Part shown: piece by piece, positions 2,991 through 60,956 of the stretch
Layout: each line of letters begins with the position of its first letter
Numbering within the stretch: position 1 is the first letter of the stretch
Source of the DNA: a bacterium
GTDB taxonomy: Bacteria > SZUA-182 > DTGQ01
NCBI GenBank assembly: GCA_040755755.1
Contig: JBFLZW010000024.1
Location: forward strand, 5,388 to 69,387
DNA: 64,000 bases
Direction of reading: 5' to 3'
Translations under genes and position numbers: made by a program
Notes under the pieces: generated by a model
The model's database searches: none
What the model saw: the letters and a program-made list of their open reading frames with translations, nothing else
What the model was told of the DNA's origin: nothing

Positions 2991-5144
2991 CTAATTTTCA
3001 TGTATCCTGATCTCGGTAAAATCCTGCACCCAGGTCAGGGAGGAGAGATTTTGCATGCCGATGGACAAATCCCGCAGCCCTCGGGTATTTTCTTTTTCAA
3101 GGGAACAGAATGCCGCAGGATCTACCAGGGCGAACGGCTCGATAGAGGCTATGGCTTTAATCCTTTCGATGCCTGCCGGGCCTGAGACGGTTATGTTGAC
3201 CCCCCCGAATTCGGGTGACGGGATGGAATACGTTCTGCCACCCCTGATAAAATTATCCTTCTGCAGTGGATTGGGGAAAATTACCGTCAGTTTGCCGCTT
3301 GTCCCGATATCCAGCAGCGAAAGATAGCAATCCCTGTCCGATTTGACATACAAGGTAAGAGAATCTCCTGTCTTATAATCACTGCGGTCGGTCCATAGAT
3401 CAATGCTGAACTTGCGCTCCTCTTCCTCTGAAAAATACACTTTATCAAGCGTAAGGTCATAAGCGGGTGCGGTATCCTGATTCTGACTATGACCGCTTTT
3501 CGAATCAAGAGATTTGAGATCGGCACTATCGATGGAGTCCCTGGCGATAATGATCCTGGCTGTCGAGACGAGGGTCCCGTCATCCGTATCCACCAGTTTG
3601 GCATTGATTCGCAAGCCCTGGTCATAAAGCCAGTATACCCCTGAAAGGTAGTAGTCCGCTTTTAATGCCCTGGCTTTCTCCCGCAGGTCCCTGTCCCTGG
3701 CTTTGTCAGGGGAGCCTTCTTCGTCAATCACGACGAAACCATCCACTTTGGCCAGAGTTGTCCGCAGGTCAGATTCCAGAACCCTGCTGAGAATAAGCCT
3801 TTCTTCGCTCCTGGCCTCGGAAAAATCCAGGACTGCCACCTTGCTGCTGCTACTGCTGGCAGCAGCTCCGGCAGTAGTGGCATTCGTATATATTCTGGCT
3901 ATGACTTCTTCCACCAGCTTGACTATCCCCTCAGACCAGGGATATGCTTCGGGTTCTCTGGCCATATCCGCAATGAGAAGATCATAGGTGAATGTCGCCT
4001 TTTTCCCGCTCCCCTGCCCGCCGTCTTCAAGGTTAACCACTGCGGATATGGTATTCACCCGGTTCTTCGATTGATCGACCCGGTATACCTTTGATCTGGC
4101 TATGCCATTGGCATCGGTGATCACCCCGGCATCCAGCTCTCCGGTGGAAGAATCAAAGGCGAATTTCACCGGCATTCCGGCTATGGGGTATTGGTTCTTC
4201 CGGTCGCCCTCCTGACCTTCAAAAAGCACTTTGACTGCCAGATCCCTGGCCAGAGGACTGCCTGCAAACCCTTTCTGGTTATTTCCATCGACCGGGAAAA
4301 TCCGGATATTCGAGATAATGTTATCCAGCCTCCTTTTGCTATCGGCCAATGACTTTTCCCCATCCTGTATCCTTGCCTCAAGCTCCTGGCTCTTGAGGTC
4401 TGACTTATCTTTCCGGATTATCGAACGCTGCTTGAGCAGCACATGAAAGCTGTCCGCCATCGCATTTGCCTGCCGGTAGCTATCGAGGGCCTTGACCAGT
4501 TCCCTGTTATTTTCCTGCCCCAGGCCCGACGAATAGAGATTATGGATAGTCTCAAGACTGCTGATAATCTCGCCTTCCAACGCTCCTGCCGCCGTATCCC
4601 TCTCCAGGGTAGCCAGAGAATAATACCGCCTCTCCTGTTCACTATACCACCTTTCACTGATGGTCAGCCCGGCTATCTTAGTGTCTATCTTAACCTTTAT
4701 CTTCGATTCGACCCGCGACTCCAGGGAGGTGGAGTGGTGCTGACCGTGGATTCCTTTCGCTTCCTGCTGGAGAGAGGTTTCCCCCTGGAAAGAGGTTTCT
4801 TCGCCTGAAATCTCCATCTCTATCTGCTTGAGGAGGTCCATGCGCGCATCTTCATCTGCGGATGTGCTATCCTTATCTGATACGCCGACACCAGTGAGGT
4901 AAAAGGCATATGGGTATCTGATATCTTTCCGGGATACAACCCAGGATGGGGCGGTTTCTTTTACCCTGCGGATTGCGGCTGAAGATGGAGGTGGAGATTT
5001 AGGCGTTGATGCAGATGCAGGTGTGTTTGTGACCTGCTTTCCGGCTGTATCCGGTAACTGGCGATGAGCGCAGCCGGTAAGACAGGGCAGGAAAAAGCTG
5101 GTTACAAGGAATAAGAAGACAAGGAATATTGGGGTATTTTTCAT
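2991..5144 (-). CDS. LPP20-type lipoprotein with FlgO-like and DUF4384-like domains
   Basis: 717 residues with a lipoprotein signal peptide (lipobox LTGC near residue 25). An LPP20-like region follows (about 65-190, starting APSWVVSRKD). Residues about 430-545 (VAVLDF ... YYLSGVYWLYDQGLRINAKLVDTDDGTLV) resemble FlgO/CsgG-type envelope lipoproteins. The C-terminal part (about 575-690, DLWTDRSDYKTGDSLTLYVKS) matches DUF4384, a domain often linked to caspase-like or secreted kinase proteins. The shorter LPP20 lipoprotein gene lies upstream on the same strand. Between them sit a palindromic repeat element and a strong hairpin, so co-transcription is uncertain. The role is unknown; an outer-membrane-anchored scaffold is inferred from the domains. 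Confidence 0.85.
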   Translation of the reverse strand: MKNTPIFLVFLFLVTSFFLPCLTGCAHRQLPDTAGKQVTNTPASASTPKSPPPSSAAIRRVKETAPSWVVSRKDIRYPYAFYLTGVGVSDKDSTSADEDARMDLLKQIEMEISGEETSFQGETSLQQEAKGIHGQHHSTSLESRVESKIKVKIDTKIAGLTISERWYSEQERRYYSLATLERDTAAGALEGEIISSLETIHNLYSSGLGQENNRELVKALDSYRQANAMADSFHVLLKQRSIIRKDKSDLKSQELEARIQDGEKSLADSKRRLDNIISNIRIFPVDGNNQKGFAGSPLARDLAVKVLFEGQEGDRKNQYPIAGMPVKFAFDSSTGELDAGVITDANGIARSKVYRVDQSKNRVNTISAVVNLEDGGQGSGKKATFTYDLLIADMAREPEAYPWSEGIVKLVEEVIARIYTNATTAGAAASSSSSKVAVLDFSEARSEERLILSRVLESDLRTTLAKVDGFVVIDEEGSPDKARDRDLREKARALKADYYLSGVYWLYDQGLRINAKLVDTDDGTLVSTARIIIARDSIDSADLKSLDSKSGHSQNQDTAPAYDLTLDKVYFSEEEERKFSIDLWTDRSDYKTGDSLTLYVKSDRDCYLSLLDIGTSGKLTVIFPNPLQKDNFIRGGRTYSIPSPEFGGVNITVSGPAGIERIKAIASIEPFALVDPAAFCSLEKENTRGLRDLSIGMQNLSSLTWVQDFTEIRIHEN

Positions 5145-5160
5145 TCTGCCTGCTCTCTTT

Positions 5161-5193
5161 ATCCGCCTCTCCCCTTTACGGGGAGAGGCGGAT
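5161..5193. repeat. 14-bp perfect hairpin upstream of the DUF4384 lipoprotein gene
   Basis: Arms 5161-5174 (ATCCGCCTCTCCCC) and 5180-5193 are perfectly complementary around loop TTTAC. The hairpin sits 16 nt before the ATG of the minus-strand lipoprotein gene, so it would fold in its 5' leader near the ribosome binding site. The CTCCCC/GGGGAG core recurs near 57.6 and 57.9 kb. Confidence 0.75.
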
Positions 5194-5208
5194 ATTCATA
5201 TCTGAAGT

Positions 5209-5328
5209 GAATGGCACTTACATAAGAATTCGTAATTTTCCCGCAGAGACGCTCTGCGGGAGATCGTTTTCCCCTGTGCGCTTTGTGTCCTCTCTATATT
5301 ATAAGCTTGGCTTATGTAAGTGCCATTC
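5209..5328. mobile_element. 120-bp MITE-like element with 18-bp perfect terminal inverted repeats
   Basis: The left end GAATGGCACTTACATAAG (5209-5226) and its exact complement (5311-5328) bound 120 bp. An internal 8-bp hairpin (5240-5247 with 5253-5260, loop GACGC) lies next to the left end. The left end plus about 28 further bases recurs at 63908-63953. No coding capacity and no clear target duplication. It lies between the two LPP20-type lipoprotein genes. Confidence 0.8.
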
Positions 5329-5357
5329 TTTCTAAAGTGGCATCAGCAAGAACAGTT

Positions 5358-5996
5358 TTATTGCCCGGCTTTCTCTTCCCGCTTCTCCACCTCTTTTGAC
5401 AGCTCGTCATGTAATTTCCCGGCATTCTCCCTGACATAATCTTTGACCTTGGAGTTCAATTCCTTCGCCTTGTCAAGGTTTTGTTCGAACTCGTTCAGGT
5501 CGAGCATTGCTAACGAGAAGATCAGGCCCTGGTTTTCGGGCGACTCCCAATGATCAATTATTTGCACACCGGACAGGGTCATCGAGGAAACAGTCTTGAT
5601 TGCCTGTTCAACATGCTGCTCCTCACTTGTTTCGGAAAAATCACCCGCTGTGGTGGAGGCTGCATAATCCTTCATCAGTGAAGCTACGTAGGTCTCAAAT
5701 GTCTTGGCCACTTCGTTCCTGGCACGGTTATCCGCTGTGGAGCGAAGGAGAGAATAATTTTTTATGCCCGATGCCGAACCAACACCATAAAAAACTTTCT
5801 TGCCTCCATCCTGAAAGGCACCACTGCCTTTGGTTACCCATGGAGGGGATTCCACCTTTTTAAATCCAATAGTAGTTTCTGCCGGTTTGGCGACAGGTTC
5901 TCCCGTCTCTACTTTTTTCCCTGCGCATCCGCTGAAAACAACCAGGCATACAAGGCTCATAAGGATTGTTTTGTGCATCTGTTGCCGATCAAACAC
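5358..5996 (-). CDS. LPP20 family lipoprotein
   Basis: 212 residues. The GTG start at 5996 is preceded by AAGGAGG with an 8-nt gap, so it is preferred over the internal ATG six codons later. The signal peptide ends in lipobox FSGC near residue 23. The body (ESPPWVTKGSGAF ... FYGVGSA, and a Ser/Thr-rich region before WESPENQGLIFSLAMLDL) is typical of LPP20 lipoproteins. The C-terminus is Lys/Glu rich. A sequence-related, larger LPP20-type lipoprotein is encoded next on the same strand, so the two may work together in the outer membrane. No enzymatic residues are apparent. Confidence 0.85.
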   Translation of the reverse strand: MFDRQQMHKTILMSLVCLVVFSGCAGKKVETGEPVAKPAETTIGFKKVESPPWVTKGSGAFQDGGKKVFYGVGSASGIKNYSLLRSTADNRARNEVAKTFETYVASLMKDYAASTTAGDFSETSEEQHVEQAIKTVSSMTLSGVQIIDHWESPENQGLIFSLAMLDLNEFEQNLDKAKELNSKVKDYVRENAGKLHDELSKEVEKREEKAGQ

Positions 5997-6036: not shown

Positions 6037-7173
6037 TTAGTCATTTTTGCAGTTATTACAGCTTATATTTGATACAGATCCCGGTACTTCGTACGGAGAT
6101 AAGAAATATATGGCATATGGCGCGGCGTTGATTTTTTCGCCAGTTACTCTCTGTACCAATTCCCGAGAAGTGAACTTTGCTCCGTGAATATGAATATGCT
6201 TTCGCAACCATTCCAGGAGAGGCGAAAAATCGCCATGCATGATATATTCCGGAAGAGTCGGAATGTCTTTTATCAAACGGTCATAGAATTGCAGAGCTAA
6301 TACATTTCCCAGCACATAGGTCGGAAAATACCCGAAAAACGCCGCTGACCAATGAACATCCTGGAGCACACCCAATGCATCGTTGGGTGGTGTGAGCCCT
6401 AAATAGGCTTTCATTTTCTCATTCCATAGCTCAGGTAAGTCTTTGACTTCAACTTCCAGGTCGAAACGGAGAAAAACATGAAGGTTGTAGGTGACTTCAT
6501 CAGCTTCGGTTCTGATATAGCCTAGGCGTACGACATTGACAGCCTGGTAAGCCTGTTCTATAGTTGCCTCTACCAGTTGATCGGGATAAAAGGACTTTAA
6601 AATCGGAAGAAAATACGTCCAGAATGCCCGGCTTCTGCCAATCACATTTTCCCAGAGGCGCGATTGGGATTCATGAACTGCCGTCGAGGCTCCTTTCGAT
6701 AATGGCGTTCGAGCGAGCGCCTCCGCAATCCCCTGTTCGTACAATGCGTGACCACATTCATGGACAGAGCTAAGGAAGGCTGAAGTAAATGAATTTTGGT
6801 CCAGCCATGTCGTAATTCTGACATCTTGGGGTGAGAATGCCACTGAAAAAGGATGGGCGGAAATATCCTGCCGTCCCCGGTTAAAGTCATAGCCAATCCT
6901 CTTGAGCACCGCTGTTCCAAATTTCCATTGAGCATCGACATCGAAAGCTCCTTGAAATAGAATACCTTGAACCGCATCCTGCTGTCGAGAAATCTGCTTT
7001 ATCAGCGGAACCAGTTCTGTTTTGAGAGCTTCAAAAATACCAGCCACGTCCGCGGTTTTCATTTCAGGTTCATACAGGTCCAATAACGGATCATAGATGT
7101 TCTCGGTATATCCCAGGCACTCGGCTTCCTCTGACGGGTAAGGACAACCAACAGGAATGAGGAGCATTGACAA
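6037..7173 (-). CDS. M32 (Taq-type) metallocarboxypeptidase lacking the N-terminal part
   Basis: 378 residues against about 500 usual for the family. The catalytic half is intact: HECGH zinc motif (His138, Glu139, His142), VHESQSRLWEN, and the IRTEADEVTYNLHVFLRF signature. About 135 N-terminal residues are missing. The reading frame runs into the end of the upstream M1-barrel gene with only a TTG start (7173), 16 nt from that gene's stop. M32 enzymes remove C-terminal residues from peptides in the cytoplasm. The shortened protein may be a pseudogene left by a deletion, or a re-initiated ORF; family knowledge favours decay because the helical N-terminal lobe contributes to the substrate groove. 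Confidence 0.8.
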   Translation of the reverse strand: MSMLLIPVGCPYPSEEAECLGYTENIYDPLLDLYEPEMKTADVAGIFEALKTELVPLIKQISRQQDAVQGILFQGAFDVDAQWKFGTAVLKRIGYDFNRGRQDISAHPFSVAFSPQDVRITTWLDQNSFTSAFLSSVHECGHALYEQGIAEALARTPLSKGASTAVHESQSRLWENVIGRSRAFWTYFLPILKSFYPDQLVEATIEQAYQAVNVVRLGYIRTEADEVTYNLHVFLRFDLEVEVKDLPELWNEKMKAYLGLTPPNDALGVLQDVHWSAAFFGYFPTYVLGNVLALQFYDRLIKDIPTLPEYIMHGDFSPLLEWLRKHIHIHGAKFTSRELVQRVTGEKINAAPYAIYFLSPYEVPGSVSNISCNNCKND

Positions 7174-7188
7174 GGAATTGAACCCGGG

Positions 7189-10053
7189 TTAGAAGAAACC
7201 GCCGATCTGGAGCCAGGTGACAACGGGCTCTTCTCTTTCCGGGTCATGGTCGAGAGGAAAAGCCACATCAACCCGCAGGTCCAGGGGGATTAAATTCGCC
7301 AGCGAGGTTTTTACGATCAGGGCTGTCCCTATGTCATGCCGGTAGTGGGCATCGCGGAACCTTTGACCATTATCCCAGACTTTCCCTCCGTCATAATAGC
7401 AGGCAGCATCGACGCCCTCGAACCAGAAATACTTTTTGATCGAGATATCCTTCCGAAAGCGCTTGTGAATCGGCCATTTCAATTCCGCATTCCAGACAGC
7501 GATACTCGATCCCAAATAATCGAGATCGTAATTATATCCACGGAGCATCGCAGGCCCGGCCAGTGAAAATCTCTTCTTCAGAGGCGCTTCACCCTGAATG
7601 TCCCCCACAAATGACCGGAGCATCAAGCTCGACAGGTGGTGAACATGGATGAAGTATTGCCCATCGATCTGATATTGCTCAAAATCGTAATCTCCACCCA
7701 ACTCCTCTGAGCATATCTCGGCTCCCCCCTCCAGATGCAGCCCCGACAGGGGAGTTTGCCGGGCGTCCCGGATGTAGTGTAAGCTTATGCTTCCTGCCGA
7801 TCCCCTCCAGCGGATCGATTTTTTTTCAAGGTTCTCTTTTTCTTCAAGGTCTTTATCTTCATCCTCGGAAAGATAGTAGGCTTCCTGAAAATTGTACAGC
7901 AAGTCGAAATAGTTTGCAGGCATGCGGACCTGCTGATGGGACTCGTACAGGGTTAAGCCGAATCCGGCAGATCCCCCCCGGACGCCCTGCACATCGAAAG
8001 CCGCGGCCCTGGCCGCCAGATTCGGCAGGAACAGCCGGTCCCTGGTAAAAAGCGCCTGGAAGCCTAATTTGCGGGGTTCCTGCTTGTAAAAGCCGCTGAT
8101 CAGCAACTGCCAGTCAGTGAGATATCCTGCGGTCAGGGTCAATCCGATAATTTGTTTATCGGTCGGATTGGAAGTCGATAAAGGAATCGCGGTAATCAGA
8201 TAACTGTCGGAATCGGGAAAATCGAAGATTGGACTGAACCTGACGGGAAGCCGGTAATGGTTATTCGAGCGATCGATATCCGGCAGGATATGCCGTGGAT
8301 CGAGGCTGGCCTCGGCAATTTTCCCCTCGGTTGTGAGGGTAATGCTTTCTTCCTCCTGCCTGCCATCAAACTGCACGGTTTCCTTCCTGCCATCCTGAAA
8401 GACAACCTGTAATTCTCCCGGCATGACAGCTTCCTGGAGACGCCGGATATGCACCGTGGATATGATCTCGCCGGTCCGGCCCTGGCGGGTGGAAATATGA
8501 TCAATGGCATAATCCAGTTTTTTCGTGTCGTAGATCCATTGGTCAAAAAACCAGGTGAGGTCCTTTTTGGCCACCTCCTGACAGAGAGACAGCAACTCCC
8601 GGGTGGTCACTATTCTGGCAAAATATCTCTGGACGAGGGCCTGCAAAAAAGCCCTATAATCTTCATCACCCATCAGGTAATGGAGCATGCGGTGGATCAT
8701 GGCTCCTTTGTCATAGTGCATGGCACTGAGGGAGGCAAGGTCATCGGTCGCTTTGGCAGATTCGGTAATGGGACGATCGTACCCTCTGACAGCCTCTTCC
8801 CGGTACGGCAGTTCGACAAAATATTCGCTGTAGTCCATATTCGGCATCCACCGGGGCCAGGAGAGCAGGTTTTTCCCCTTCCCGTATTTCTTCTCGAAAT
8901 ACCGGATACTGGTATAGTTGGCCAATCCTTCGCCGATCCAGTTATGCTTGTCGAAATTGTAGGTCAGGCCGACGCCAAACCACAGATGACTCACTTCATG
9001 GACCACGACAGCCTCCATGATCCGGTTCAGCAGGCCGGGTAACTTGTGTAATTCCCGGGGAATAAAAATGCTGTTGCCTGAAGTGTAGGCTGCCGGAGCT
9101 CCCATGTAGAGATCGACAAGCGATAGATGATCGAAGGTCAGGGGCAGTTGAACATCCTGATGGATATACCGTATGGCTTCGGCTGCATACTGAAGGCAGG
9201 ATTGCATGGTCTTTGCATCCTGGGGCAAATAGTAAGCCCTTATCTTTACTCCTTCGGATTCTTTTTCCGCAGTGCGATAATGACGGCTGGATGCCAGGGC
9301 CAGCAGGGGGGTGGGGCCGCAGTTTCCCGAATAGGTGGTGGTCCCGTCAGGATGGCTTTCGATCTTTTCCCAGACTGCCGAGGAAACAGGAACTTCCTGC
9401 GAAGGAAGAGTAAGGGAAAGATGGAAATAAGCCGCAGGTGCTTCTTCGATGCCGGTAATCCACTTCCCGTCCCTTCTGGATAGGAGAAAGGGATACCAAA
9501 ACCCCTGTAAATAAAGCGTCTGCCGGTAATGACCTTCACCGAACCTTTCAGGGACCCTGCCGTGAAAGTCAATCTCGAGCGTATACTTTTCTCCGGGGGC
9601 CAGCGATCTGGGCAGGGAGACATGCAGCAGGGTCTTTTCCTGAGCACATCCGAGCGGCAGATCGTGATCTGCCCGGTAGTCATACTGCATCGGATTACCC
9701 TGCTCGTCCCGGACTCCGAGAATTTCCATCCATCCGGGATTGAATCCTTCGGGATAGATAGTATCGTACGTACTTCCATCCACTTTCGGGTCTTTTCGGG
9801 CCAGGGTATTGGGAACCAGTTGGAAAAGCATCTCGGATAAGGGAAGGTCTGAAGTATTGTAACAGGTAACCGTTACTTTTCCGGCAAGAAAATAGGTCTG
9901 GGTGTTCAACTGAACATCGATCTCGTAGCGGGGAAGATTGTCCGGTGGGGGATATTGGGCAAACTCCGGTTCCGGCAATCCGCTGAAGAATATCAGCAGA
10001 AGGGCAGTAATCAAGAGAACGTAGCCTGCTTTTTGTTTCATTGCCGTCTGCAA
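7189..10053 (-). CDS. M1-family metallopeptidase fused to an Omp85-like outer-membrane barrel
   Basis: 954 residues. The signal segment (about 8-32) is followed by an M1-type beta domain and a gluzincin core: HEVSH at 352-356 and Glu375 in WIGEGLANY, giving HExxH-18-E. The GxMEN substrate motif is altered to YMGAPAAYTSGN. After about residue 600 the protein becomes strand-rich and ends in a BamA/surface-antigen-like barrel with the LRGYNYDLDYLG motif, WNAELKWPI, a tyrosine-rich penultimate region and terminal GGFF. I infer a peptidase tethered to the outer membrane by its own barrel. The gene has its own divergent start opposite the pagL-like gene. Confidence 0.85.
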   Translation of the reverse strand: MQTAMKQKAGYVLLITALLLIFFSGLPEPEFAQYPPPDNLPRYEIDVQLNTQTYFLAGKVTVTCYNTSDLPLSEMLFQLVPNTLARKDPKVDGSTYDTIYPEGFNPGWMEILGVRDEQGNPMQYDYRADHDLPLGCAQEKTLLHVSLPRSLAPGEKYTLEIDFHGRVPERFGEGHYRQTLYLQGFWYPFLLSRRDGKWITGIEEAPAAYFHLSLTLPSQEVPVSSAVWEKIESHPDGTTTYSGNCGPTPLLALASSRHYRTAEKESEGVKIRAYYLPQDAKTMQSCLQYAAEAIRYIHQDVQLPLTFDHLSLVDLYMGAPAAYTSGNSIFIPRELHKLPGLLNRIMEAVVVHEVSHLWFGVGLTYNFDKHNWIGEGLANYTSIRYFEKKYGKGKNLLSWPRWMPNMDYSEYFVELPYREEAVRGYDRPITESAKATDDLASLSAMHYDKGAMIHRMLHYLMGDEDYRAFLQALVQRYFARIVTTRELLSLCQEVAKKDLTWFFDQWIYDTKKLDYAIDHISTRQGRTGEIISTVHIRRLQEAVMPGELQVVFQDGRKETVQFDGRQEEESITLTTEGKIAEASLDPRHILPDIDRSNNHYRLPVRFSPIFDFPDSDSYLITAIPLSTSNPTDKQIIGLTLTAGYLTDWQLLISGFYKQEPRKLGFQALFTRDRLFLPNLAARAAAFDVQGVRGGSAGFGLTLYESHQQVRMPANYFDLLYNFQEAYYLSEDEDKDLEEKENLEKKSIRWRGSAGSISLHYIRDARQTPLSGLHLEGGAEICSEELGGDYDFEQYQIDGQYFIHVHHLSSLMLRSFVGDIQGEAPLKKRFSLAGPAMLRGYNYDLDYLGSSIAVWNAELKWPIHKRFRKDISIKKYFWFEGVDAACYYDGGKVWDNGQRFRDAHYRHDIGTALIVKTSLANLIPLDLRVDVAFPLDHDPEREEPVVTWLQIGGFF

Positions 10054-15915: not shown

Positions 15916-18900
15916 TTAAAAATCCTTCTTCCAGATCAGATCCACGCTGGAATTCTGGTCATTGCGAATCTCGGCCTCCAGGGTGAGATTGCTGTACAGG
16001 TAATATTCCACAACGACCTGCTCGGCTCCTTTCTCCTGGCCGAACTCCTTGCCGAAAGAGACGAAGACATTCCTGGTCAGATATTTTCCCACTTCAAGAG
16101 TGCTGATCCCCTCCTTTGAGGCCCGGATCTGCACGGTATCGACCGGCAATTTCTCGCCGAATATTCCCAGCACCTGGGTGGCCACTACCCTTCCCAGCAG
16201 GGCAAAGGCCTCACCCTGCAAGCTGGCGGCCTCCCTTTGATTCAGGTTTTCGAGCTGCTGGCCGAAAACCAGGAGCGAAATTATTTGATCCTGCGACAAT
16301 GTCGGGTCATCACTCTGCAATCTGACGACCGGAGCTTTGCGGGTTCCTGAAATCAGGATGTAGATATTCGTCTCCCCCACCCGGTAAACGGTTTCCATAT
16401 CGATCAGGGGATTGATTTCCGGCAGTCCCTGAAACTGAATGTTCGCCCTGCGGATAGTAAATTCCTTGCCGTAAAATTCATAGGTTCCCCGTATGCTTTC
16501 GATACTCCCCGCAATGGCCGGATCCTGGCCGAAGGTCTTATGGATGCCAAGTTCTCCCTTGAGCTCGATATTGGTTTGTTCACCGCTGACCCAAAAATTC
16601 CGGGGGATGCTCACGGTTACGGACATGGATACATTGGGTTTGAAAAAAGCCGCTTTTTTTTCCACCAGCTTCATCTCATCCTCTTTCCCCCGTATCACCT
16701 GAATTTCTGAAGAGCTTTTTTTACCGAAGGCAAAATCACTCAGCCTGGCCTTCCCCTCCGGGATAGACATTCTGCCCGCCACGGCAATGCGGGACAAGTT
16801 TCCCTGAGCTGAAAGCTCCCCATTGAAAACAAAATAAGTGGTGCGGGAGTAGAGTATTTTCCACTTATCCGCTCTGATCCTGGCCGTAATGCTCCTGACC
16901 GTAAATCCGGATAACTCCACAGCGGCGGAAAGTCTTCCTGCACCGGACTTTCCAGCAAGGTCCACATCCTCGAAGGTAATACGCTGGCTGTTTCCCCTGA
17001 TCAGGGCGCTCCTGACCTGAAAGACCTGAAGGAGCGGCTTGATTCGAAATGAGGTCCTGACAAATCCCACACTTCCTTCAAACCGGGGGTCCCGGAGACT
17101 GCCGGTCATCGATCCTGTCCCGGAGACGGCTCCCTTCACCTCGGCGAGGGCAGGCAGGAATGAAGGAATCACCGAGAGGTCAACCTCCTGAAGCCGTATC
17201 CTCAGCTCCAATCCTGATCTGGACCAGCGGTCAGGGACTGAGCGGAAAGAAAGGTCCACCGGCACCATGCCTTCAAGGTGCAGGATCTCTTTTTCCGCCT
17301 GAGCCAGGCTGGCGGTGATATTCAGTTTTTTTTGGCTGTAGGTGAATTCCTGGTGCAGCCGGTTAAAGGAGAAGGTGGACCATCGCCCTTTGATGACCTC
17401 GAGTTTCCCGCTCATTTCGGGCGAGATTCTCGTTCCCGCAAGGTTCACCTCTCCCTCCAGGGTACCGGAAAGAGATCCGAGTGAAGAAGCGGTCCTTCCC
17501 GTCCATTTCCCGATCTCCTGCACGGGGAAGCCGGATACCTGAATCTGCATTTTCTGTTGACCGGTCCGTCTGATTTCTCCCTGGGCAGCGAAATACCTCT
17601 GCCCCGATCCCAGCCGGAGAGAGAGAATGCGCACATTTTTATCGGCATCCAGTTCCACCCGGATCGGCTCGATGTTTCGCCAGATCGATTCTTCCAGGGG
17701 GAATGAAGCCTCATCCACTCTGACCGATACCTGGAAGGGCTGAAGGATATCCGCAACCCCCCGGGCCTGGTAGACCCGGTTGACTTGCCGGGTTCCCCTG
17801 ACCTGCCAGGTGATCTTTGGCCCCTCTTTCCTGGCCTGGATGCTCAGAGAATCCTGAAATTTTTGCTGCTCGTGCCAGAGGGAGGCCGCCTGGATCCGGG
17901 CATCGAAATTCAGGGCCTGAAATGAACGCCCTCCCCCTGCCCTGCCCTTGAGCGCAATATTCGAAGCATGATAGCCCCGATAGGTTATATCGCGGCCAGT
18001 AAATTCCCCCGCAAGCTCAGGCTGTTGCCAGCTCCCGGTGATTTTCCCGTGGCCGCTGACCACACCTGCGGAAAGGTCAGCCAGCCGGTCAATTCCCGCC
18101 CGTGAGAAATCCAGCTCCGACAGGTTCCAGATCAGATGCAGCTTCTGCCGGGAGGCTGTGCCGCGCAGGGTGAGGGCTAAACCATCGGCGGTGATTTTTC
18201 CCTGGCTCAGGTGCACGGTCCCGGCTGCAAAATCCCCCTGAAGCGTAAGATTGTCCACAAACCTGTTTTCAATCCAGGAGGGGAAAAGACGCACCGATCC
18301 GGCAGCCTGAAAATTTTTGGGAAATCCCGTTCCCACGCTTCCCTGGAGCATTGCATCCCCGGCCAGCCGTGATTCCCGGACCAGGCGGGCGGGCAGCCCC
18401 TGTATCCGCGCAAGGTTCACCTGCTGGAAAGAAATATCCGCCCGGTACAGAAAAGGAGGCCGCAGGTCTGCCTCCCCCTCCAGTCTGACCCTGCCCGCAG
18501 GGCCATTCACTTCCAGGTTCGCCAGCCGTAACTTTCGCCCATCCAACTGGGCTGAAAACCCTGCTGCCGTAACGGATTGCCCAAACAGGGTAAAGGGAGA
18601 AATATCAGCTTCAATTTCCGCTGAAATCTCATCCGGCCGGATGCCCTCTCCCCTGATTCGGGCATGCAGATCGAGATACCGGGAAAAGGCGGACCGTTTT
18701 TTTTCGGGCAGCCACCAGGATACCGGAAATCTCCGGATGCCGGTGCGCAGACGGTAGCGGGGAAATCCGGGATCGGAAAGGTCCAGGTTGCCGCCGGACT
18801 GCCACTGCCCTTTTTGCCTGTCCGCCTCAAAGGAGAGGAGAAAGGAATAATCGAGATCGCTCAAAGTTCCCCGGACTCTGCCCTCCCCTTCCAGGTCGGA

Positions 18901-19788
18901 AAGACGCAGGAGGGCGGGGGGAAATTGGCCCGGCACGCCGCCTCTGGCCAAGATAGCCTCCAATTCCGGAAGAGATATCCTGGAGAGCCTGCCCCGCAGA
19001 TCGAAAAAGGGCACATCCCGCTGACCTGCTGCCAGATTCACCCTGCCCTGCAGCCAGATCTGTGCCGGAGCGCTCATAACCTCCAGGCCGCTGATGTCAA
19101 GGACTCCCTGCCGGGAGGAAACATCACCCCGGACCTTGTTGACCGCCAGTTGCCAGGGACTGACCCGAAAGGAAAGATTCCGGACCCTGGCGTCCCAGTC
19201 CCCTGCTCCAGGCCGGAGATACAGGCCAAGGGAAAGGTCTGCCTGAATGCCCTGGCCGGATATCTCGATCGGCGATTTCTTCTGAAAGTAATCCCGGAAA
19301 GTCACATATCCATCCTGGATAAGGAGCCGCTGGATCCGAAAATCCAGGAGAGGAAATCCCGCGCCGGTCGGCGATGGAGGAGAGGGGCGGCCCGGCAGGG
19401 GAAGCACGCGGATACCTCCCTCTTCGGTACGGATTATGGTCAGGTGCAGCCTTGAGAGCGCTACCCGGGGAAAGGTCATCTGCCGGGTCAGAAGAGCGAG
19501 CGGAGAGAAGCGGACTTTCATTTCTCCCAGACTCAGGTGCTCACCTTTCGGGTCTCGCAGCTCCACCTCCTCCAGAACCAGGCCGGTAACAAGGTTTCCT
19601 CCGATTCTCCTCACGGATAAGGCCAGCCCAAACTTCTCCCGGGCATTTCGGGCCAGAACCCCGCTCAGCCAGTTCCGGAACGAGGCGGTTTGGGTCACCA
19701 GGGCCAGAATAACCAGCACGCTCCCAAGCACCAGCGCACAGGAGCCTAACAGGATAGCCAGACTTCGAATGACCGATTTAGCGCTCAT
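15916..19788 (-). CDS. tamB: TamB/DUF490 translocation and assembly module protein
   Basis: 1290 residues. An N-terminal signal anchor (about 9-32) is followed by a long beta-rich body of repeated strands, as in AsmA/TamB bridge proteins, and the conserved TamB/DUF490 domain over roughly the last 330 residues (GKARLSDFAFG ... SIRGTYEFYGKEFTIRRANIQFQG ... DQIISLLVFGQ ... LEVGKYLTRNVFVSFGKEFG). It ends VDLIWKKDF, typical of the family. TamB spans the periplasm and works with TamA in outer-membrane protein assembly or phospholipid transport. The ATG follows the stop of the Omp85 gene with no gap (TAAATG), showing translational coupling. Confidence 0.95.
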   Translation of the reverse strand: MSAKSVIRSLAILLGSCALVLGSVLVILALVTQTASFRNWLSGVLARNAREKFGLALSVRRIGGNLVTGLVLEEVELRDPKGEHLSLGEMKVRFSPLALLTRQMTFPRVALSRLHLTIIRTEEGGIRVLPLPGRPSPPSPTGAGFPLLDFRIQRLLIQDGYVTFRDYFQKKSPIEISGQGIQADLSLGLYLRPGAGDWDARVRNLSFRVSPWQLAVNKVRGDVSSRQGVLDISGLEVMSAPAQIWLQGRVNLAAGQRDVPFFDLRGRLSRISLPELEAILARGGVPGQFPPALLRLSDLEGEGRVRGTLSDLDYSFLLSFEADRQKGQWQSGGNLDLSDPGFPRYRLRTGIRRFPVSWWLPEKKRSAFSRYLDLHARIRGEGIRPDEISAEIEADISPFTLFGQSVTAAGFSAQLDGRKLRLANLEVNGPAGRVRLEGEADLRPPFLYRADISFQQVNLARIQGLPARLVRESRLAGDAMLQGSVGTGFPKNFQAAGSVRLFPSWIENRFVDNLTLQGDFAAGTVHLSQGKITADGLALTLRGTASRQKLHLIWNLSELDFSRAGIDRLADLSAGVVSGHGKITGSWQQPELAGEFTGRDITYRGYHASNIALKGRAGGGRSFQALNFDARIQAASLWHEQQKFQDSLSIQARKEGPKITWQVRGTRQVNRVYQARGVADILQPFQVSVRVDEASFPLEESIWRNIEPIRVELDADKNVRILSLRLGSGQRYFAAQGEIRRTGQQKMQIQVSGFPVQEIGKWTGRTASSLGSLSGTLEGEVNLAGTRISPEMSGKLEVIKGRWSTFSFNRLHQEFTYSQKKLNITASLAQAEKEILHLEGMVPVDLSFRSVPDRWSRSGLELRIRLQEVDLSVIPSFLPALAEVKGAVSGTGSMTGSLRDPRFEGSVGFVRTSFRIKPLLQVFQVRSALIRGNSQRITFEDVDLAGKSGAGRLSAAVELSGFTVRSITARIRADKWKILYSRTTYFVFNGELSAQGNLSRIAVAGRMSIPEGKARLSDFAFGKKSSSEIQVIRGKEDEMKLVEKKAAFFKPNVSMSVTVSIPRNFWVSGEQTNIELKGELGIHKTFGQDPAIAGSIESIRGTYEFYGKEFTIRRANIQFQGLPEINPLIDMETVYRVGETNIYILISGTRKAPVVRLQSDDPTLSQDQIISLLVFGQQLENLNQREAASLQGEAFALLGRVVATQVLGIFGEKLPVDTVQIRASKEGISTLEVGKYLTRNVFVSFGKEFGQEKGAEQVVVEYYLYSNLTLEAEIRNDQNSSVDLIWKKDF

Positions 19789-21657
19789 TTAAAAAGCCTG
19801 ACCAATACTGAGGTGAAAGCGGTAGCGGACAGGTATCTCTTTTTGCGGATTGAGAATATAACCATAATCCAGCCGCAGAGGGCCAATGATGGTCTTGTAT
19901 CGAATTCCCGCACCCGTAGAATAGTGCAAATCGTTAAAGTCAAACTGCATCGAATTAGGAAAAACATTGCCGAAATCCACAAATGTCACTCCCCACAGCT
20001 TGCCGAACAGGGGAAACCGAAGCTCCATACCTCCCTCAACCAGGGAATTTCCGCCAACCGGCTCCTGGTTCTCGGAAAGAGGGCCCAGCTTCTGGTAATC
20101 ATATCCGCGGACACTCATGGTTCCACCGGAAAAAAACCGCTTCATGATCGGCACTCCCCGCTGGTTCAGGCCGTAGGGCTGAATTGTTCCCATGAGCAGC
20201 CGTCCTGCAAGTATCGGCCCGGCCAGGAGACGATAGTAGCGCTTATACTCCGCGGTTCCCTTCACATAGGATACCTCGGAGCCGATGCCTTGCAGGGATG
20301 GTTCGATAAAAAAAGAAGCCTGTTCCCCGCTGGTCGGATCCAGAGGAGAGTCGGTGGTATTCCATTTGAAGCCGGTTTGAAAATAGGAAAGGAAGTATAC
20401 CCTCTCCTGATCCTTTTTGGCCTCCTCCGACAGACCGCTGATGGCAGACGAATCCAGGCGGTGAGCCAGAAAGACCGACAATGCGGAACCGATGCCCCGC
20501 TCAACCCGTAACTCGTTCGAGATATTGCTGACGTCAAAAGAAGTAAACATTTCTTTCCGCCTGAACAGAGTCCACCGGGAGGTGGATGCGGAGTCGGGAA
20601 AGTACGGCTGCCTGAAAGTCAGGGCCTCCTCTTCGGCCAGAGAAGACAGGCTCAGGGATAGCCCAAGCTCCCGCAAGCCCCCGAAAATATTGCGGTAGGT
20701 CCCCGATATTCTGAGGCGCAGCCGATCTTCCGTTCCATACCCAAGTCCGACCTCCACGGTCCGGGGCTTTCGCTCCTGAAGGAGGATATGAACATCTATC
20801 GGCCCGGTTCCCTCCTGAAGATTCACCGGGTTCACCAGGACAGAGCGAAAGAAGCCAAGGCCGTTAATTCTCGACTGGGTTTGAAAAACCCTGTTCATGG
20901 AAAAGGGCTCCCCTTCGGCAAAGGTCACCTCGCGCATGATATTGGGAAGTGAGATATTTTTATATCCCGTGACCTGTATCCTGCCAAACCGGCTCAAGGG
21001 CCCCAGCTCAACCGGCAGACGAATGACCGCACTGTTATCCTTCTCATAGATCAGGACCCTGCCCGACAACCGGGCTCTTGGGTAACCGGAATTGGCCAGA
21101 TATTCCAGGATATTGGTCTTGGACTGCTCATAATCCCTGACCCGGAATATTTTTCCCCGCTGAAGGGATATAATCCGCCGAAACCTCTCTTCCCATTCGG
21201 ATGTCTGCCCATCCCGAATTTCAAAGGTGACTTCCTGAATGGTCACTGCAGGCCCCTCGCTGACATACAGGGTTATTGTTAAAGCCCCATCTTCTTCTTC
21301 CGTTATCTCCGGACTGATCCTGACCTGATAATACCCCTCCTGGTGGTAAAGCTGCTGAACCTGTTCCAGGTCGCTGTCCAGTTTTTCGGCGGTATATTCC
21401 TTGCCTTCCTGCCAGAACTTCCAGAACGGAGGGGGCCGAAGGCCCGTCATTTGCTGGCGGACCTTACTCCCGGAGACTCTCTTTACTCCCACCAGCCGGA
21501 TCTTTCGCACCAGACTCCGCCTGTTCTGACTGCTCCCCTGAGCACGGGCCGGAGCACTCAAGCCTAACCAGAGGGCGGCCCCAATCAGTATCATAGCCAG
21601 GTTCACCAACGGGAAAACCGGCATTCGTTTTCCAAAATCCGAGGGGAATTCATCCAT
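19789..21657 (-). CDS. tamA: Omp85 family outer-membrane protein, TamA/BamA-like
   Basis: 622 residues. A signal segment ends near AQG at about 41. POTRA domains follow (about 50-300: KIRLVGVKRVSGSKVRQQM, YVSEGPAVTIQEVTFEI, FGRIQVTGYKNI), then a 16-strand surface-antigen barrel (about 300-622) with the SVRGYDYQKLGP motif, an RGF/RGY-type lid lock. It ends in HLSIGQAF with terminal Phe. Direct coupling to tamB supports a TamA role rather than BamA. It probably inserts or threads outer-membrane proteins. The start could also be the second Met, 11 codons later, since neither has a strong ribosome binding site. Confidence 0.9.
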   Translation of the reverse strand: MDEFPSDFGKRMPVFPLVNLAMILIGAALWLGLSAPARAQGSSQNRRSLVRKIRLVGVKRVSGSKVRQQMTGLRPPPFWKFWQEGKEYTAEKLDSDLEQVQQLYHQEGYYQVRISPEITEEEDGALTITLYVSEGPAVTIQEVTFEIRDGQTSEWEERFRRIISLQRGKIFRVRDYEQSKTNILEYLANSGYPRARLSGRVLIYEKDNSAVIRLPVELGPLSRFGRIQVTGYKNISLPNIMREVTFAEGEPFSMNRVFQTQSRINGLGFFRSVLVNPVNLQEGTGPIDVHILLQERKPRTVEVGLGYGTEDRLRLRISGTYRNIFGGLRELGLSLSLSSLAEEEALTFRQPYFPDSASTSRWTLFRRKEMFTSFDVSNISNELRVERGIGSALSVFLAHRLDSSAISGLSEEAKKDQERVYFLSYFQTGFKWNTTDSPLDPTSGEQASFFIEPSLQGIGSEVSYVKGTAEYKRYYRLLAGPILAGRLLMGTIQPYGLNQRGVPIMKRFFSGGTMSVRGYDYQKLGPLSENQEPVGGNSLVEGGMELRFPLFGKLWGVTFVDFGNVFPNSMQFDFNDLHYSTGAGIRYKTIIGPLRLDYGYILNPQKEIPVRYRFHLSIGQAF

Positions 21658-58076: not shown

Positions 58077-60956
58077 TCACTCCCTGGACACCAGATACCC
58101 TTCTCCCGGCCTGATGGGGTAATTTTTGCCGCTGCACCGGCTATAAAACCCGTAGGTAGCCTCCCATTTTCCAGAGCGGGTATTGAGCCTCTGCATTTCC
58201 GCCAGTTTATTGCTGTCGGTGTAGCCTTGCAGCCTTGTAAGAACCTCAAAAGAGAGAGCCTTTGTATCTTCAATGGGAAAGGATATCCAATTCACGCCCC
58301 CGCTCAATTCAGCCCCGATTTGGGGCAGGACCGTGTCAAGTTGATAAAAATACTCCACGCTCAAGGTGAGTCTGGGTCTATCTTCCCGCAAATAAAGCAA
58401 ATATGCCTGTCCCTCTTTGATTTCGAAGTTATCGCCGCCGGGAGCGGAAGACAGCCAGCGAGAGACTGTTCTGGGGTTTTCCTGCCAGAGAGCATGGGCC
58501 GCCCCTGCCAGGGAATGCATGAGCTGGTATGAGGTGCTGCCTTCAGCCGGAACCTTTCCCGGATATCCGAAGAGGTTCAATCCTGCCTTGAGATCGATGG
58601 ATGTCTGTTCTTCAAGCTGCAAGGCCTGATAGCTTCGGATTTTCTTCCCTTCGGCATTCAGGAAAATCAGATCGTACCGGCCAGCCGGAAGATCCGGCGG
58701 GAGACGAAACCGGATGCTGTTCGGATCCTGACGGTAACCGGGAGCCGTGCCGGGATTTTCAAGCTCAAGGCTTTGGGGAGCCGGATAGATATCGAACCCG
58801 CCAAATCGATTCCCGGCATAAATATACTTCTGGTCAGCCGCAACGATATTGGCACCCTGAGAAACCGGTATATTATCCAGTTTAGCGGGAGATGAAGGAT
58901 TAGATATATCCATGATCCATATGCCATTCGAATTTCCGGCTGCATAGAGGAAATTTCCCGAAACGGCGCAATCTGCCAGGTATTCATTCGGGAATTCCAC
59001 CTTTCGGCTGAGTATTGGATCGCTTTTTTCAGCTACGTTAACTACCATGATGCCATAGCTTCCGTTAACCAGGTAGGCGTAATTACCTTTAAGCCCGACA
59101 TCCAGAACAAGAGCGGGAGAGAGTGAGAGTGATGAGGTTGAGGATGATTTTGGAGGGATTATCTGAGGTTTTCCCGGATCGGAGACATTGATCGTCCATA
59201 ATCCATCCTTTCCACCGGCGACATAGGCCACATCATTCTGCACCACGATATCCTGAGGCATCGAGCCCAGGGTCAATTCTCCCCTGGGGGTACGGTTAAG
59301 ACCGGGATTTATTTGAAAAATATGCAGCCCTTTGATCAGGCTCAGCAGGTAAAGGTAATTACCCTGAATCGTGAGAGACTGAATCTGATCATCCTGGCGG
59401 ACGGGTTGTTCACCAGGCAAAATAACCTTATGATCAGCGGAAAGCTTGAACAGACAAAGGTTGGAACCATTGGCCAGATACAGTCCATTCCGGGAAACAC
59501 AACAGTTCGAGACCAGAACGGTATCCCAGCCGGTATTTGCCTTTTCCAGGGAGCAGTCGATGCGGGGATTCCACGGGTCGGCTATGCTAACGGCTTTCAG
59601 TCCCTGCCTGCCCATTGACAGGTAAGCATGATCTTCGGATACAGTCACCCCCCAGATATCGCCTCTCATGGGCAAATGCCCGATAGAAGTGCACATATGA
59701 TATGGCTGGATATCCAGTAATGCCAGGCCGGCATCGCCGTTGGCGATCAGTACATAGTCTCCCGTCTCATCGTCGGTCCTTATGGAGATTGCATTCCCCT
59801 GCGTAGAGATATGATGGCGAAAGATGGGATTTGATGGCAGAGAGATATCAACCAGATCCAGACCGGATGTCCCGGCGGCAACGATGGCCAGGTTCTCCCG
59901 CATAGCTATCGATTTTCTCCCGTCCGGCAAGGGAAGGCGATATACGACCGACGGGAACTCAGGATTATCCACATCCACCACATACAGACCGTAGCGGCTG
60001 TCAACGAGATAGGCATATCGGTTGTCCTTGATTTTCACATCCACAATATTGGGAAGGTAGGCAGGGACATTCGGATCGATCAGGCGGTTTGTGTCCAGAG
60101 GTTCCAGGACCGACTTCGATGATTCGTGAACGATTTGGGCTGAGCCGCTGTTGGCAATATAGATATACCGTTCATGGGTACGGGGATGAACCTGGACATC
60201 CAGACTGAAAGGAGATAAGATATCCCAGGTTATTGGAGATGTCAGCAGAAAAGAAAAGCCCTTGCCGGGAGACCAGTCATAGATCTTCAACCCTGATTTC
60301 CAGTTGGTGAGGTAGACTCGCCGCTCTTGCGCTACTGGCAAACCATCCTTATCTCCAAGGTGAATCCCATAGGTCAGGGAATCTGCGAGCAGGGCTTTCC
60401 TGCTGGGCAATAAGGGGTTAGAAACATCAATGACCCAAAGGCCTTTCAAAAGATCGGTAATAAAAAGGTAATTATCTGAAATTTTTATGCTTTGTAAAGA
60501 TTTACTGAAGCCCGGATCCTGAAATGTCTTTTTTATCTCCAGGTGGTTAGGGTCACTGACATGAATAATCAGGATTTTGGAATAATCGGCGATAGCATAG
60601 ACATAAGGGTCTCGAAAATCAAGTGCGGTAATTGAGCTTTGCTGGCTCCCCGCTCCGGAAATTACACTCCGGATATGGGGATAAGATGGGGTAAGAATAA
60701 CTCTTGAAATCTGATCGAGGCCGCTCCCCCTGGCAGTTATCAGATGACTGCCAGATTGAGTCATGGTGCAGGGCTCGATGGTATTTATTCTGGCGGTAAA
60801 GCCCTGGGCTTGTGCAGATCGATCAGCACAGTCAGGCAGGGTGAGGAGAAATATCAGAAGGGATATGAAAATACAATAAGCTGGTTCCCAAAAGATCCGC
60901 ACAGAGGGTAAAGATATCCCTTGTCCTTGATGCGTCCAGATCCGCGTAGTCACCAT
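58077..60956 (-). CDS. large exported LVIVD-type beta-propeller protein
   Basis: 959 residues with a hydrophobic N-terminal segment (about 27-48). Then follow more than ten LVIVD-like repeats, each with a sequence such as YVYAIADYSKILIIHVSDPNHLEI, YLFITDLLKGLWVIDVSNPLLPS, YAYLVDSRYGLYVVDVDNPEFPS, YAYLVNGSYGIMVVNVAEKSDP, typical of PF08309-type surface propellers. The C-terminal part (about 760-959) has two copies of a GLNLFGYP / GVNWISFP module with the ends GQAYLLYL and GEGYLVSR. Probably a surface-exposed binding protein; ligand unknown. No close partner. Confidence 0.82.
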   Translation of the reverse strand: MVTTRIWTHQGQGISLPSVRIFWEPAYCIFISLLIFLLTLPDCADRSAQAQGFTARINTIEPCTMTQSGSHLITARGSGLDQISRVILTPSYPHIRSVISGAGSQQSSITALDFRDPYVYAIADYSKILIIHVSDPNHLEIKKTFQDPGFSKSLQSIKISDNYLFITDLLKGLWVIDVSNPLLPSRKALLADSLTYGIHLGDKDGLPVAQERRVYLTNWKSGLKIYDWSPGKGFSFLLTSPITWDILSPFSLDVQVHPRTHERYIYIANSGSAQIVHESSKSVLEPLDTNRLIDPNVPAYLPNIVDVKIKDNRYAYLVDSRYGLYVVDVDNPEFPSVVYRLPLPDGRKSIAMRENLAIVAAGTSGLDLVDISLPSNPIFRHHISTQGNAISIRTDDETGDYVLIANGDAGLALLDIQPYHMCTSIGHLPMRGDIWGVTVSEDHAYLSMGRQGLKAVSIADPWNPRIDCSLEKANTGWDTVLVSNCCVSRNGLYLANGSNLCLFKLSADHKVILPGEQPVRQDDQIQSLTIQGNYLYLLSLIKGLHIFQINPGLNRTPRGELTLGSMPQDIVVQNDVAYVAGGKDGLWTINVSDPGKPQIIPPKSSSTSSLSLSPALVLDVGLKGNYAYLVNGSYGIMVVNVAEKSDPILSRKVEFPNEYLADCAVSGNFLYAAGNSNGIWIMDISNPSSPAKLDNIPVSQGANIVAADQKYIYAGNRFGGFDIYPAPQSLELENPGTAPGYRQDPNSIRFRLPPDLPAGRYDLIFLNAEGKKIRSYQALQLEEQTSIDLKAGLNLFGYPGKVPAEGSTSYQLMHSLAGAAHALWQENPRTVSRWLSSAPGGDNFEIKEGQAYLLYLREDRPRLTLSVEYFYQLDTVLPQIGAELSGGVNWISFPIEDTKALSFEVLTRLQGYTDSNKLAEMQRLNTRSGKWEATYGFYSRCSGKNYPIRPGEGYLVSRE

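Follow-up and report, generated by a model that had tools for sequence, protein, structure and literature searches.

Omp85 barrels are known as membrane-protein assembly and secretion machines, and PlpD was the first protein with such a barrel that was shown to act otherwise (PMC11116518). The Omp85 census of Heinz and Lithgow (2014) distinguishes ten subfamilies, of which the enzymatic ones are patatin and the PF00149 "metalloprotease", and it accepts subfamilies that lack POTRA domains; its main text mentions neither PF01433 nor an aminopeptidase (PMC4104836). In 2024, the patatin enzyme domain of PlpD was reported to be kept exclusively in the periplasm (PMC11116518). A search of the open-licence literature gave no published account of a fusion between an M1 peptidase and an Omp85 barrel, and a family of such fusions is apparently undescribed.

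We analyzed a stretch of bacterial DNA of 64,000 nucleotides, referred to here as the window, in which one minus-strand gene encodes an M1 peptidase and an Omp85-type barrel. The gene and the parts of its product lie as follows:

7189 to 10053, minus strand: gene for the fusion of M1 peptidase and Omp85 barrel, 954 codons if read from TTG and 950 if read from ATG, codon 5 (Pfam, model)
9955 to 10041, minus strand: predicted signal peptide, residues 5-33, a hydrophobic helix ending ...PEFAQ (helix 2-24 in the model; putative cleavage site)
9256 to 9930, minus strand: M1 N-terminal beta domain, residues 42-266 (model; M1 structure match from residue 39)
8524 to 9225, minus strand: M1 catalytic domain, residues 277-510 (PF01433 at 344-506; VIA-align to 6a8z; helical in the model)
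9085 to 9108, minus strand: position of the GxMEN motif, residues 316-323 (YMGAPAAY), with the glutamate absent (alignments)
8986 to 9000, minus strand: HEVSH zinc site, residues 352-356, whose two H and E do not vary within the window-type subfamily
8929 to 8931, minus strand: Glu375 (in GEG), third zinc ligand, invariant in alignments
8302 to 8511, minus strand: Ig-like beta-sandwich domain, residues 515-584 (model strands)
8257 to 8301, minus strand: linker motif DPxxxxxDxxRxNN, residues 585-599, common to M1-only relatives too (alignments)
7198 to 8202, minus strand: 16-stranded Omp85-type barrel, residues 618-952 (model strands; Omp85 E = 1e-12; hhalign E 1.5e-14)
7534 to 7545, minus strand: LRGY (VRGF/Y-type), residues 837-840, within loop 6, which joins strands 11 and 12

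The reading frame is open for 954 codons without an internal stop, and its product ends in ...TWLQIGGFF. The true start is probably the ATG of codon 5 (MKQKAGYVLLIT...) rather than the TTG, and from there the protein begins with a Sec signal peptide that has no lipobox cysteine. Pfam Peptidase_M1 (PF01433) matched residues 344-506 (E 2.9e-20, 73.3 bits against a cut-off of 27.7) and, in the same frame, Pfam Omp85 (PF01103) matched residues 658-941 (E 1e-12, 48.7 bits against a cut-off of 24), so that both exceed their curated gathering cut-offs. NCBIfam matches were weak but the same in kind (Omp85_fam 2.5e-09, BamA 3.2e-07, PepN type 3.1e-09), and no POTRA domain was matched by Pfam anywhere in the 954-residue protein. 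Because GC3 is equal in the two halves of the gene (0.60 and 0.61) and relatives share the co-linear layout, we rejected a frameshift or a misassembly as the origin of the fusion. The first-pass annotation had placed an M1 core and a barrel in one polypeptide, and the Pfam and profile matches in one reading frame, together with a confident model, bear this out. It had also raised the objection that homologues might always carry the two halves as separate genes, with a frameshift here; the frame is open, and relatives have both halves co-linear. We conclude that the M1-Omp85 fusion is confirmed as real.

An AlphaFold model was built for the 954-residue protein from an alignment of 58 sequences (the window protein and retrieved loci) in which BamA barrel rows were included. 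The model, with a mean pLDDT of 85.0 and a pTM of 0.84, runs from a signal helix through the M1 N-terminal and catalytic domains, an Ig-like domain and a short linker to a C-terminal barrel. A barrel of 12-16 strands had been anticipated after residue 600, and the model has exactly 16, between residues 618 and 952. In whole-model comparisons with VIA-align, the M1 half matched 1z1w (Z 28.5, rmsd 2.9, 460 residues aligned) and the Deinococcus two-domain M1 peptidase 6a8z (Z 26.9, rmsd 2.7, 388 aligned), and the sole clear match in a viral structure library was an M1 protein of Tupanvirus, the rest being noise. The Foldseek and VIA-align lists for the whole models were filled by M1 structures, and for that reason no Omp85 structure is listed there, which we do not take as evidence against the barrel.

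Profile comparisons and modelling support the assignment of the C-terminal half as a predicted Omp85-type 16-strand barrel that lacks POTRA domains. When aligned to a profile built from 20 Omp85 barrels, the window barrel gave an hhalign probability of 98.3 (E 1.5e-14), compared with 0.1 (E 0.44) for the same barrel reversed as a control, and the wider family's barrel gave 98.9% (E 1.6e-17), compared with 0.1% for its reversed control. When a family-barrel profile without BamA rows was searched against solved structures, the three best were all BamA chains (best E 2.9e-5). Because the alignment behind the window model contained BamA barrel rows, we also modelled L122, a distant fusion member, from fusion proteins alone; in this model (pLDDT 84.4, pTM 0.83), the Ig-like domain is again followed by 16 strands, and LRGY occupies the equivalent loop. 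In the model of the window protein, LRGY sits in the 27-residue loop 6, the site of VRGF in BamA-type proteins, and LRGY or VRGY is present in most of the larger fusion family. The Pfam Omp85 model was matched by 2 of 16 family barrels, the others being too diverged, and L219 and L252, as separate matches, both do match it. The barrels of the five nearest relatives of the window protein (L246-L250) are very divergent, have no LRGY and fall below Pfam Omp85, which counts against the explanation that we favor below. BamA-type barrels gave the window barrel a better score than the family barrel profile did, and a single-sequence phmmer search of it against the PDB returned no match.

The window protein and these five relatives, which we term the window type, share their catalytic residues. 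H352, E353, H356, E375, Y447 and K449 are invariant in all six aligned proteins, which indicates that the zinc site and the usual catalytic tyrosine are retained. The intact HExxH-18-E core claimed from the DNA was recovered, with catalytic Y447 and a match to the M1 fold, and the motifs named in the first-pass annotation were found at the residues given for them. In M1 aminopeptidases, the glutamate of GxMEN holds the free amine (the N-terminus) of the substrate. This glutamate is missing in six of six window-type proteins, which have MGAPAAY, MGSQSAY, GMTAD or AMAAD at that position; most other fusions have GMEY. Since the glutamate is gone while the zinc and catalytic set is kept, the alignments make ordinary aminopeptidase activity of the window type doubtful, and shifted specificity or endopeptidase action would be plausible. 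The missing GxMEN glutamate weakens the earlier designation "aminopeptidase". Another branch holds a full-length M1-barrel fusion (L113:1387-4344, minus strand) in which HExxH has become RLVAQ and GMEY is lost. Judged by these residues, L113 appears to be a natural pseudo-peptidase on an Omp85-type barrel, and its lack of HExxH means that not every fusion member need be a peptidase.

Co-linear M1-barrel relatives are spread over many bacteria that are only distantly related. About 20 of 386 genomes sampled across bacteria carry such a protein, counted as reading frames of at least 930 aa whose profile match extends into the barrel; in one other phylum, 16 of 60 genomes have homologues of about 950-1116 aa that are co-linear over their full length. 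Among the named carriers are candidate division KSB1 and, from the Bacteroidota, a MAG (L126, L127). The fusion is absent from all eight genomes of the same class that were searched, one of which has an M1 protein without a barrel. The rarity implied by the first-pass annotation thus holds in that the arrangement is uncommon and no published description was found, but this is a broad, multi-phylum family and not a one-off. A profile made from the fusions minus the window protein matched that protein over its full length, linker and barrel included, with 240 bits, and the window protein has the family layout of co-linear M1, Ig-like domain, DPxxxxxDxxRxNN linker and barrel. Its five nearest relatives have the same build and are 936-965 aa long, L246 being 950 aa with a match of 399 bits.

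We also built a tree of the M1 part by a quick method, with SH-aLRT as the sole measure of support and four of L246-L250 included. The window protein and these four form one clade (98%), within which the window protein pairs with L246 (99%). The remainder of the tree mixes other fusions with M1-only relatives, and the supported branches of the tree as a whole force at least two changes of fusion state. Because fused proteins occur on either side of the deepest split of the family, early fusion followed by losses would be the simpler reading of the tree, with repeated M1-Omp85 fusion kept as a possibility. One locus was considered as a split form (G015, L185:1312-5288, minus strand) and was rejected, as a DedA gene lies between its M1 and Omp85 genes and the M1 is of another type. 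Another unusual fusion was seen in L088, where a 975-aa minus-strand ORF encodes an M1 protein with apparent ChaN-like and PDZ-like regions (by eye).

The gene immediately downstream of the fusion gene, starting 15 bases after it, is an M32 carboxypeptidase ORF (6037-7173, minus strand) that lacks the first 133 profile positions of its family and represents a truncation or else a minimal version of the gene. No other M32 was found in this genome or in the class relatives, and because the relatives lack M32 as well as the fusion, both peptidase genes may have been acquired jointly. A PagL-like gene lies upstream in divergent orientation. Within 12 kb, a tamB-tamA pair (15916-21657, minus strand) encodes TamB (1290 aa) together with an Omp85 protein in which three POTRA domains were matched, and a separate BamA-type protein (L162) is encoded elsewhere in the same genome. 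The neighbors of the fusion in other genomes provided no functional link, the conserved ones being dnaE, LysE, subtilase and cytochromes. Elsewhere in the window we observed a protein of 567 aa whose N-terminal domain is caspase-like (C14; 675-2378, plus strand) and, near it, LPP20 and FlgO/DUF4384 lipoprotein-like genes (2991-5996); a large exopolysaccharide cluster (31196-55568) with an XrtA/PEP-CTERM-type amidotransferase, glycosyltransferases, a flippase and a polysaccharide deacetylase; and a 959-aa LVIVD-repeat protein (58077-60956, minus strand).

We consider it fairly probable that the fusion is an outer-membrane-anchored, periplasm-facing zinc M1 metallopeptidase with an Omp85 barrel. 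Sec would export the chain, and the BAM complex would insert the barrel in the outer membrane. A barrel with an even number of strands, here 16, has its two termini on the periplasmic side, and therefore the M1 body is expected in the periplasm, against the inner face of the membrane, provided that it does not pass through the barrel. In that position it would hydrolyze peptides or cut inside chains, the latter proposed because the amine anchor is gone, and possible substrates would be incoming oligopeptides or the debris of periplasmic and outer-membrane proteins. The main role of the barrel would be that of an anchor, with Omp85 insertion or translocation activity as a possible addition. The loss of HExxH in L113 and the lack of a functional link among genomic neighbors also count against this model.

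It is unlikely, in our estimate, that the protein is instead a factor for outer-membrane protein assembly or quality control, in which an M1 domain has taken the place of POTRA to trim or bind clients and is possibly non-enzymatic. Such a role would fit with every earlier studied Omp85 protein bar PlpD working in assembly or translocation (PMC11116518), with LRGY or VRGY being retained in most of the larger family, and with the loss of HExxH from one fusion (L113) and of the GxMEN glutamate from the window type. It fits poorly with the invariant zinc ligands and catalytic residues of the window-type set, the absence of POTRA and the patchy distribution, with no fusion in the class relatives and with separate bamA and tamA-tamB genes present.

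The first-pass annotation had favored an autotransporter-like protein, displayed at the surface or in the periplasm. A type Vd-like autotransporter, whose barrel would carry the M1 domain outward for surface display or release to digest external peptides, seems to us quite unlikely: the M1 body is large (about 580 residues), the linker is only roughly 30 residues and not of the passenger type, POTRA is absent, and a barrel of 16 strands has both ends in the periplasm. This is despite the LRGY kept in loop 6, the long-held view that type Vd passengers are secreted and the existence of surface aminopeptidase autotransporters such as AaaA (PMC6555100). PlpD, the analogue for the surface model, holds its enzyme domain in the periplasm (PMC11116518), and for this reason we prefer a tethered periplasmic peptidase; by analogy, the M1 domain is likely periplasmic, which leaves the periplasmic half of the original wording as the likely one.

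An accidental, independent fusion or an assembly chimaera of M1 and Omp85 genes in this genome only is highly improbable, since the lack of the fusion in eight class relatives and the closer score of the window barrel to BamA-type barrels than to the family barrel profile are set against a 240-bit co-linear match to the fusion family through linker and barrel, the sister protein L246, 98-99% support for the fused clade and uniform GC3.

A second enzyme class on an Omp85 barrel, present in many phyla, suggests that the Omp85 barrel has repeatedly served to tether hydrolases to the outer membrane. We tentatively raise the possibility that an M1 domain in place of POTRA represents an eleventh Omp85 architecture, old and multi-phylum, which would include a GxMEN-less subfamily of tethered, periplasm-facing endopeptidases or processing enzymes. 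The family is a clean system in which to ask if a POTRA-less Omp85 barrel can still insert or translocate proteins, and it also poses the question of why an M1 peptidase would drop its N-terminal anchor.

Compared with described systems, the window protein resembles the patatin-Omp85 proteins PlpD and FplA (type Vd) in having a signal peptide, an N-terminal hydrolase and a C-terminal 16-strand Omp85 barrel. However, PlpD and FplA have patatin and POTRA, where the window protein has M1 and, at the place of POTRA, an Ig-like domain, and it falls outside type Vd as defined by patatin, POTRA and a 16-strand barrel. The "Metallo" and "noNterm" Omp85 subfamilies likewise have a barrel without POTRA, and "Metallo" has an enzymatic N-terminal domain, but "Metallo" is defined by PF00149 and the window protein has an M1 peptidase instead (PMC4104836). 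AaaA, the Pseudomonas surface aminopeptidase autotransporter, also has a peptidase and a barrel in one chain, but it is a classical type Va protein without an Omp85 barrel and is a functional analogue only (PMC6555100). With the M1 gluzincins (tricorn factor F3, 6a8z, ERAP1, LTA4H) the window type shares the N-terminal and thermolysin-like domains, HExxH-18-E and the catalytic tyrosine; it differs in lacking the GxMEN glutamate and in carrying a barrel where larger members have a helical C-terminal domain. As modelled, the window protein is M1 by sequence, zinc site and fold, and Omp85 by sequence, strand number and loop 6.
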